From Pseudomonadota bacterium (GTDB lineage: Bacteria > Myxococcota_A > UBA9160 > UBA4427), in NCBI GenBank assembly GCA_027295775.1, contig JAPUKG010000288.1:1-36970 (forward strand): 36,970 nt of DNA, read 5' to 3'. The notes under the pieces were generated by a model. It had not been told where the DNA came from, did no database searches, and saw nothing but the letters and a program-made list of their open reading frames with translations. Below, piece by piece: positions 14,567-16,885 of this stretch. The position numbers were made by a program, and so were the translations under genes. Each line of letters opens with the position of its first letter. The first letter of the stretch is position 1.

Positions 14567-14592
14567 AGGACGCGCTCGTAGGGAGGATCTAC

Positions 14593-15156
14593 ATGGCTCG
14601 CATGAACGGGGTTCCGGAGGACCGGGCAGACCTCGTCTCGCGCCTCTTCTTCAGGGCTGTTCGCAAGCGGACCGGCAAGGTCGCCGAGTCCTGGAAGATC
14701 GCCTCGCACGCTCCCGGGATCCTCCGGGGCTGGGCCGCCATGGAGTGGTTCCTCGATCGCGCGAACCGCGTGGAAGCGAAGCTCAAGCGATTGGCGCAAC
14801 TCAAGGTGGCGCTGATGGTCGGGTGCCCCACCTGAATCGACATCCACTCTGCCGGGGGCAGAGAGATCGGCATCACCGAGGACCAGCTCCGCAACATCTC
14901 GAGCTATCGCGAGAGCGACGCGTTTAGCCCGCTGGAGAAGGCCGTCCTCGAGTACGCGACCCTGATGACACGCATTCCCGTGGACATCCCGGGCGAGCTC
15001 TTCGCGGAGCTCCAGAAGCACTTCGACGAAGCGGCATTGGTGGAGCTGACGACCGCGATTGCCCAGGAGAACTTCCGCGCCCGCTTCAACCGCCCCTTCG
15101 AAGTCGAGTCCATGGACTTCTCCGAGGGCGCGTTCTGCCCGCTTCCGGAGCGCTAG
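14593..15156 (+). CDS. Selenocysteine-containing carboxymuconolactone decarboxylase/AhpD-like protein (in-frame TGA at 14833-14835 read as Sec81; CPTU motif)
   Basis: ATG 14593 preceded by GGGAGG; frame reads ...LAQLKVALMVGCPT[TGA]IDIHSAGGREIGITEDQLRNISSYRESDAFSPLEKAVLEYATLMTRIPVDIPGELFAELQKHFDEAALVELTTAIAQENFRARFNRPFEVESMDFSEGAFCPLPER*. Continuous CMD-family homology on both sides of TGA; TGA sits exactly at the second Cys of the family's GCPxCIDI motif; stem-loop follows. Confidence 0.93.
14833..14863 (+). promoter_or_regulatory. Putative bacterial SECIS element
   Basis: TGA (14833-14835), 18 nt, then apical loop GGG (14854-14856) closed by a perfect 7-bp stem CTCTGCC (14847-14853) / GGCAGAG (14857-14863). 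Confidence 0.82.
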
Positions 15157-15881: not shown

Positions 15882-16325
15882 ATGATACGAGGCAGCTGTC
15901 TGTGCGGGGGAATCCGTTTCGAGATCAGCGGACGCGTCACCCCCATCCAGATCTGTCACGCCCGGCGCTGCCAGAAGACCACCGGCTCGGCCTTCGCCCC
16001 CGAGGCGGCGTGTCGTGCGGACCGCTTCCGCTGGATCGCGGGGGAGGACCTGATCCAGGTCTACGAGGCGCCGCTGCTGCGGGAACCGCCGCCCCTGCGC
16101 CGGGACTTCTGCCGGGTGTGCGGCTCGCCCGTGCCCGTGGTGCGCGAGGACAGCGACTTCGTCGGCTTCATGGTGGGCGTCCTGGACGACGACCCGGGGT
16201 CCCGGCCGTTCCGGCACATCTTCCTCGGACAGCGCGCCGCCTGGGACGAGCTGTCCGACGACCTGCCCCGGTTCGACGAGCGGCCGCCGGCGGATCAGCG
16301 GCTGCCCCAGAGGCGGTCATCGTGA
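15882..16325 (+). CDS. GFA (glutathione-dependent formaldehyde-activating-like / CENP-V) family protein
   Basis: GSCLCGGIRFEISG...ICHARRCQKTTGSAFAPEA...RDFCRVCGSPVPV: zinc-binding Cys pattern of the GFA fold. Confidence 0.9.
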   Translation: MIRGSCLCGGIRFEISGRVTPIQICHARRCQKTTGSAFAPEAACRADRFRWIAGEDLIQVYEAPLLREPPPLRRDFCRVCGSPVPVVREDSDFVGFMVGVLDDDPGSRPFRHIFLGQRAAWDELSDDLPRFDERPPADQRLPQRRSS

Positions 16326-16885
16326 GCGGACGGACCCGTCGGATCGCACCGCTGGCGCCGGATCGCTGGGACGAGCAGACGCGCGAGATCTTCGGCTCGA
16401 ACGATCGGCCGCTCAATATCCTGGCCACCATCGCGCACCATCCCAGGCTGCTGCGGCCCTTCCTGGCCTTCGCCGCCACGCTCTCCGTGGCCGGCACCCT
16501 TCCGAGGCGCATCTCGGAGCTGCTCGCGCTGCGCGCGGCCTGGAACTGCCGCTCCGCCTTCGAGTGGGGACACCACGTGGAGTACGGACGGGCGGCGGGC
16601 CTCAGTGAGGACGAGATCCGCAGGGTGACCGCAGGCCCGGACGATCCGGCGTGGTCGCCGGGAGATCGGGCGCTGCTCCGGGCTGCAGACGAGCTTCACG
16701 AGAGCCAGGACGTGACGGACGAAACCTGGGCCCGGCTTCGCAAGGACTGGGAAGAGGCCGAGCTGGTGGAGATCCCGTTCGTCGTCGGGAACTACACCAT
16801 GCTCTCGATGGTGGCGAACTCGACCGGGGTGCCGTTGGAGGAGGGGCTCCCGCCCCTGGGCCAGTCGGCGAGCTCCAACGAGTAG
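16322..16885 (+). CDS. Carboxymuconolactone decarboxylase family protein (non-Sec)
   Basis: GTG start overlapping the GFA stop (GTGA); ISELLALRAAWNCRSAFEWGHHVEYGRAAGLSEDEI is typical of CMD proteins with an FEWxHH active-site region. Confidence 0.9.
   Translation: MSGRTRRIAPLAPDRWDEQTREIFGSNDRPLNILATIAHHPRLLRPFLAFAATLSVAGTLPRRISELLALRAAWNCRSAFEWGHHVEYGRAAGLSEDEIRRVTAGPDDPAWSPGDRALLRAADELHESQDVTDETWARLRKDWEEAELVEIPFVVGNYTMLSMVANSTGVPLEEGLPPLGQSASSNE

Follow-up and report, generated by a model that had tools for sequence, protein, structure and literature searches.

A candidate CxxU selenoprotein of the AhpD/CMD family in a Myxococcota_A genome

The window analysed here is a stretch of 36,970 nucleotides from a Myxococcota_A bacterium (assembly GCA_027295775.1, contig JAPUKG010000288.1). 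It contains two open reading frame fragments that lie in the same frame and are split by one TGA. The locus raises the question of whether this TGA breaks a former gene, is a sense codon in an altered genetic code, or is read as selenocysteine (Sec), and what kind of protein the restored frame would then encode.

The reading frame around codon 81

Read through the TGA, the frame at 14593-15156 (+) translates into 187 residues with a single internal TGA at codon 81 (14833-14835, +), and closes with a TAG at 15154-15156. A likely ribosome-binding site, the Shine-Dalgarno-like GGGAGG at 14581-14586 (+), lies 6 nt before the ATG, and most homologues likewise have purine-rich sites ahead of the gene. 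Without recoding, the frame at 14593 yields an 80-residue stub. The read-through protein matches the Pfam CMD family PF02627 with 47.2 bits (E=2.3e-12), above the gathering score of 23 bits. The motif around codon 81 is VGCPT-U-IDIHSA, in which the TGA takes the second position of a CxxC motif. The first position, Cys78 (14824-14826, +), does not vary across the 27 Sec and 12 Cys sequences.

These sequences were collected by a homologue search that covered, in overlapping sets, 30 genomes from the same family, 91 from the class and 379 from the phylum. The search yielded 26 further sequences in the phylum with TGA at the aligned codon, or 27 counting that of the window. A set of 12 more distant matches without the TGA was also aligned, and all of them have Cys (TGC or TGT) at the position of codon 81. 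A scan of viral contigs returned no relatives. Both halves of the protein align end to end with homologues, and the mean identity of the 26 Sec homologues to the window protein is 52% after the TGA versus 36% before it, which indicates that the downstream part is under selection as protein. The original prediction had joined the two fragments into one 187-residue CMD-family protein, had placed the TGA at the second Cys of the CxxC motif and had recognized family-like sequence up to the TAG; the translation and the alignments bear out all three statements.

The same alignments speak to the reading of the TGA as a nonsense mutation or an assembly error in a former Cys gene, which would leave a pseudogene or an 80-residue truncated product. 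One base separates TGA from TGC, and the host genome is a draft assembly in 499 contigs (91% complete). However, the same TGA occurs in homologues from many other genomes, which excludes an assembly error, and these homologues share 37-58% identity and cannot be copies of one erroneous sequence. Conservation is stronger after the TGA than before it, and the hairpin described below is codon-constrained. Since the TGA is repeated in divergent homologues, both the pseudogene and the assembly error were rejected, and we regard either as extremely improbable.

A genome-wide reassignment of TGA would also keep the frame open, under a Trp or a Gly code, and codon 81 would then not be Sec. Yet the neighbouring GFA-family gene stops at a TGA (16323-16325), as do several homologues of the selenoprotein gene itself, so that TGA behaves as a regular stop codon in the host genome. 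The aligned residue in the relatives is Cys and not Trp or Gly, and the genome has a tRNA-Sec whose anticodon is TCA. The reassignment was rejected as having next to no probability. We are nearly certain that the TGA at 14833-14835 is a genuine Sec codon, and the reading of the apparently broken gene as a single intact AhpD-like selenoprotein gene is well-supported.

The hairpin after the TGA and the host selenocysteine machinery

A hairpin had been predicted at the right distance from the TGA. The candidate SECIS hairpin lies at 14847-14863 (+) and comprises a 7-bp stem (CTCTGCC/GGCAGAG) and a GGG loop, 17 nt in total, beginning 11 nt after the TGA. This geometry is identical to that of the E. 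coli fdhF SECIS, which a review describes as an upper stem-loop of 17 nt at a distance of 11 nt from the UGA (PMC8659212). Taken by itself, the fold of this one sequence is unremarkable (a 66-nt fold gives z = +0.94, which is not unusual), and ~4% of its synonymous versions reach a stem as long as 7 bp. We therefore judged the hairpin only across homologues. Its conservation at this distance across the 27 sequences agrees with the prediction and makes a convincing comparative case, drawn from pairing, compensation, codon bias and the uniqueness of the pattern.

In an alignment of 26 sequences, which omits one homologue (L076) whose stem is laid out differently, 95.6% of the stem cells are paired versus 39-53% in slid versions, and a compensatory exchange of U-A to G-C is found in the stem of L071. 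The small apical loop, in which a bacterial SECIS is expected to have a G, is GGG in the window and mostly GTC, GTG or GGC in the other Sec homologues. L076 itself (G053:C191:1744-2274) is a divergent Sec homologue that is placed near the Cys forms on the tree with low support. It has an unrelated stem, CTCGTAC/GTACGAG, which still pairs and occupies the same place.

Codon usage in this region is skewed. The Ser86 codon is TCT in 25 of the 27 Sec sequences and TCG in the other 2, whereas TCT accounts for 1.7% of the Ser codons in the rest of these genes. For Arg90, 24 of 25 sequences use AGA or AGG, versus 7.3% elsewhere; binomial p-values for these biases overstate their significance, because the sequences are related. 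Ser86, Gly89 and Arg90 are nearly fixed in the Sec forms and variable in the Cys forms, a pattern in keeping with a constraint that comes from the RNA rather than from the protein. The aligned Cys forms have no such hairpin. The exact TGA-plus-stem pattern occurs in 14 of the 91 class genomes, once in each and always inside homologue matches, and a reversed control pattern has zero occurrences in the same 91 genomes. A scan of the region against Rfam returned no family match, even at E up to 5.

The host genome encodes most of the machinery for Sec insertion. Its tRNA-Sec scores 69.5 bits against a Rfam cut-off of 47 bits; ARAGORN calls it too, and gives TCA as the anticodon. A selA match is found at E=1e-148, and the N- and C-terminal parts of selB lie within one 717-codon frame and together score 294 bits (cut-off 242 bits). 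For selD, only the C-terminal end is seen (34 bits), in a frame running off the edge of contig C214. The remaining selD-family matches in this genome score under the cut-off; one of them (L018) looks by sequence like a thiamine-monophosphate-kinase-type relative. Because selA is found in all 30 genomes of the same family and selD exceeds its cut-off in 26 of the 30, the absent half of selD is best read as an assembly gap. Thus, the expectation that the host carries the sel genes holds for the tRNA-Sec, selA and selB; of selD, the draft assembly shows the fragment on C214. In other genomes of family f1, including those of L085-L088, selD occurs in two forms: one, mostly in frames of 350-410 codons, contains an internal TGA, and the other, mostly in frames of ~760-850 codons, is free of TGA and may be fused to a further domain.

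This machinery, the Cys homologues aligned at U81 and the TGA in independent genomes give strong support to the selenoprotein call. In the proposed mechanism, SelB carrying Sec-tRNA(UCA) would bind the hairpin at 14847-14863 and the ribosome would decode the UGA at 14833-14835 as selenocysteine, a step that has comparative support.

Distribution of Sec and Cys forms

The closest Cys forms (L090, L094 and L095) belong to a different family within the phylum, and further Cys forms were obtained from Syntrophaceae and Hyphomicrobiaceae MAGs. On the maximum-likelihood tree the Sec and Cys forms interleave. The Sec label requires three changes, compared to a shuffled mean of 10.4, and at least two of these are required by well-supported branches. 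This indicates more than one exchange between Sec and Cys within the sampled set. One Sec homologue, L093 (G212:C217:5422-5916), has an extra in-frame TAA 17 codons after the TGA, which may reflect gene decay or a sequencing error.

We had expected a Cys form to accompany the loss of the Sec machinery. This expectation failed in part, as four Cys-form genomes (G331, G368, G358 and G378) carry selA. Two further genomes with matches that also lack the TGA (G231 and G359) gave no selA match.

A second type of CMD protein, with one TGA in the matched stretch (query residues 60-158), was observed in most genomes of family f1 (e.g. L056, L057 and L058), and is probably another AhpD-like selenoprotein. 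The host genome of the window contains no match of this second type.

Predicted chemistry, gene neighbourhood and relation to known families

An AlphaFold2 model built with five sequences has a confident core at about residues 61-160 (block means 82-97); its N-terminus is uncertain and its C-terminal tail is of low confidence. The top fold matches are the AhpD-like proteins PA0269 and Atu0492 (E ~4e-5 to 2e-4), followed by the debrominase Bmp8 and Mlr4105, and the sequence search agrees with the fold search on the nearest structures. PA0269 of Pseudomonas aeruginosa (2ijc, 2o4d, 7xw1) and Mycobacterium tuberculosis AhpD share the all-helical AhpD core and have their CxxC at the same place, but with Cys where the window protein has Sec. 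The AhpD-type redox pair is present as C78 and U81, and by this motif the protein is predicted to work as a CxxC-type redox enzyme. The clade has an additional conserved cysteine near the C-terminus, Cys182 (15136-15138, +), which all 27 Sec sequences and 10 of the 12 Cys homologues share. It is a possible third redox residue, and lies in the low-confidence tail, where the model does not fix its position.

The mechanism of M. tuberculosis AhpD involves Glu118, Cys130, His132, Cys133 and His137 (PMC3141380). The relay Glu, 12 residues before the first Cys, is not kept: position 66 is Arg in the window protein and A, T, R, D or S in the clade. The relay His, four residues after the second Cys, corresponds to position 85, which is His in the window protein, but in only 5 of the 27 Sec sequences. 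Judged by these residues, the protein falls outside the AhpD alkylhydroperoxidases on one of their defining features, the proton relay.

Our preferred reading, which we consider very likely, is that the gene encodes a 187-residue AhpD/CMD-fold selenoprotein with a SECIS-directed Sec81 that acts as a thiol/selenol oxidoreductase and not as a decarboxylase. From the predicted fold and the alignment, Sec81 and Cys78 would sit at the helix start of the AhpD-type redox motif. In the most likely chemistry, the Sec81 selenolate would attack an oxidized substrate, which might be a hydroperoxide, a disulfide or another electrophile. Cys78 would then resolve the Sec81 adduct as a selenenylsulfide, and a dithiol reductant would recycle the pair, possibly via the conserved Cys182. 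Since the AhpD relay Glu and His are not conserved in the clade, a peroxidase step is uncertain. The original prediction had proposed a Sec81/Cys78 selenenylsulfide pair in a peroxidase/reductase-type enzyme and had doubted a true decarboxylase. A Cys78/Sec81 redox pair is indeed likely and decarboxylation unlikely. The peroxidase assignment does not follow, because the relay residues are not conserved and the nearest solved full-length relatives include the debrominase as well as AhpD-like proteins.

The missing relay residues would also fit a selenoprotein that, in the manner of the AhpD-fold debrominase Bmp8 and, by analogy, of the selenoenzyme deiodinases, reductively removed a substituent such as a halogen from a small electrophile. 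Bmp8 (6ohi, 6ohj) is a fold match and ranks with the top full-length sequence hits of the clade profile (6ohi; E=1.6e-16, residues 18-172). However, PA0269 and Atu0492 score about equally or better, Bmp8 is a Cys enzyme with only ~20% identity in the structural alignment, and no genes for halogenated substrates were recognized adjoining the selenoprotein gene. We therefore consider this dehalogenation unlikely, and favor the broader thiol/selenol oxidoreductase.

In the window, the selenoprotein gene starts 26 nt after a DHH-family gene and converges with a gene for a SAM-dependent O-methyltransferase. A second CMD-family protein is encoded 1.2 kb downstream (16322-16885, +), adjoining the GFA-family gene; it has no CxxC, with W-N-C-R-S replacing the redox motif. 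In 10 Sec (L036, L037, L060, L062, L063 and L065-L069) and 2 Cys homologues (L077 and L079), the gene immediately upstream, which has the same orientation, encodes a small DUF4345-like protein, so named from a Pfam match below the cut-off. This protein is probably a multi-helix membrane protein, judging from its sequence, and contains the conserved motif WMLAGPMHWYTDLPAAVPDTGPFN.HFVRDIGCAF and several conserved His residues. This arrangement suggests a functional link between the DUF4345-like protein and the CMD protein. In the host genome of the window, a DUF4345-like relative with 55% identity is unlinked to the selenoprotein gene (L097, C347:9338-9724) and lies beside hydrolase-like and TetR-like genes. 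A more far-reaching proposal, to which we also assign a low probability, would be a distinct, almost wholly Sec-using CMD subfamily with a Sec81/Cys78/Cys182 relay, a DUF4345-like membrane partner and non-peroxide chemistry, such as a reductive loss of a substituent comparable to the reactions of Bmp8 and the deiodinases.

Selenoproteins of the AhpD-like, CMD-domain and related CxxU kinds were described from the Sargasso Sea in 2005 (PMC1088965), and AhpD-like and CMD-like members are listed in recent reviews (PMC9312934, PMC13188914). Compared by description only, the Sargasso Sea AhpD-like (TIGR01926/COG2128 YciW) and CMD-like (PF02627) selenoproteins share with the window protein a common superfamily, Sec as the second residue of CxxU and a bacterial SECIS directly after the UGA (PMC1088965, PMC9312934, PMC13188914). 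MBW1767730.1 is a published CMD-like selenoprotein, and MCB9421940.1 a published AhpD-like one. The nearest curated model is NF053654 (GroundWater_YciW, YciW-related (seleno)protein), which aligns over residues 1-174 of 187 and model positions 1-174 of 179 (E=2.7e-31). The model also matches each of the 11 clade members that were tried. The score of 108.7 bits is below its cut-off of 310, and the protein is thus no equivalog by NCBI's own rule. The peroxidase-related enzyme model TIGR01926 gives 31.1 bits against a cut-off of 81.8. The GSU3128 family (seleno)protein, NF041047, is also a short AhpD-like CxxU selenoprotein (PMC13188914); its 84-position model aligns to residues 59-105 only, with 29 bits against a cut-off of 110. 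A literature search on Bmp8 and YciW-type selenoproteins returned nothing further. The window gene is thus a new selenoprotein in a lineage beyond the reach of the curated models at their cut-offs, and of a CxxU AhpD/CMD kind that is already known.

Standard gene callers would split or truncate this gene, and the description of it as unannotated in the original prediction is plausible for this contig. The 26 homologues, together with the SECIS signature TGA-N12-TCTGCCGNNGGCAGA, can be used to re-annotate related genomes. Sec and Cys forms occur side by side within a single phylum, and some of the Cys forms are in genomes that bear selA, which provides a usable system for the study of Sec/Cys exchange.
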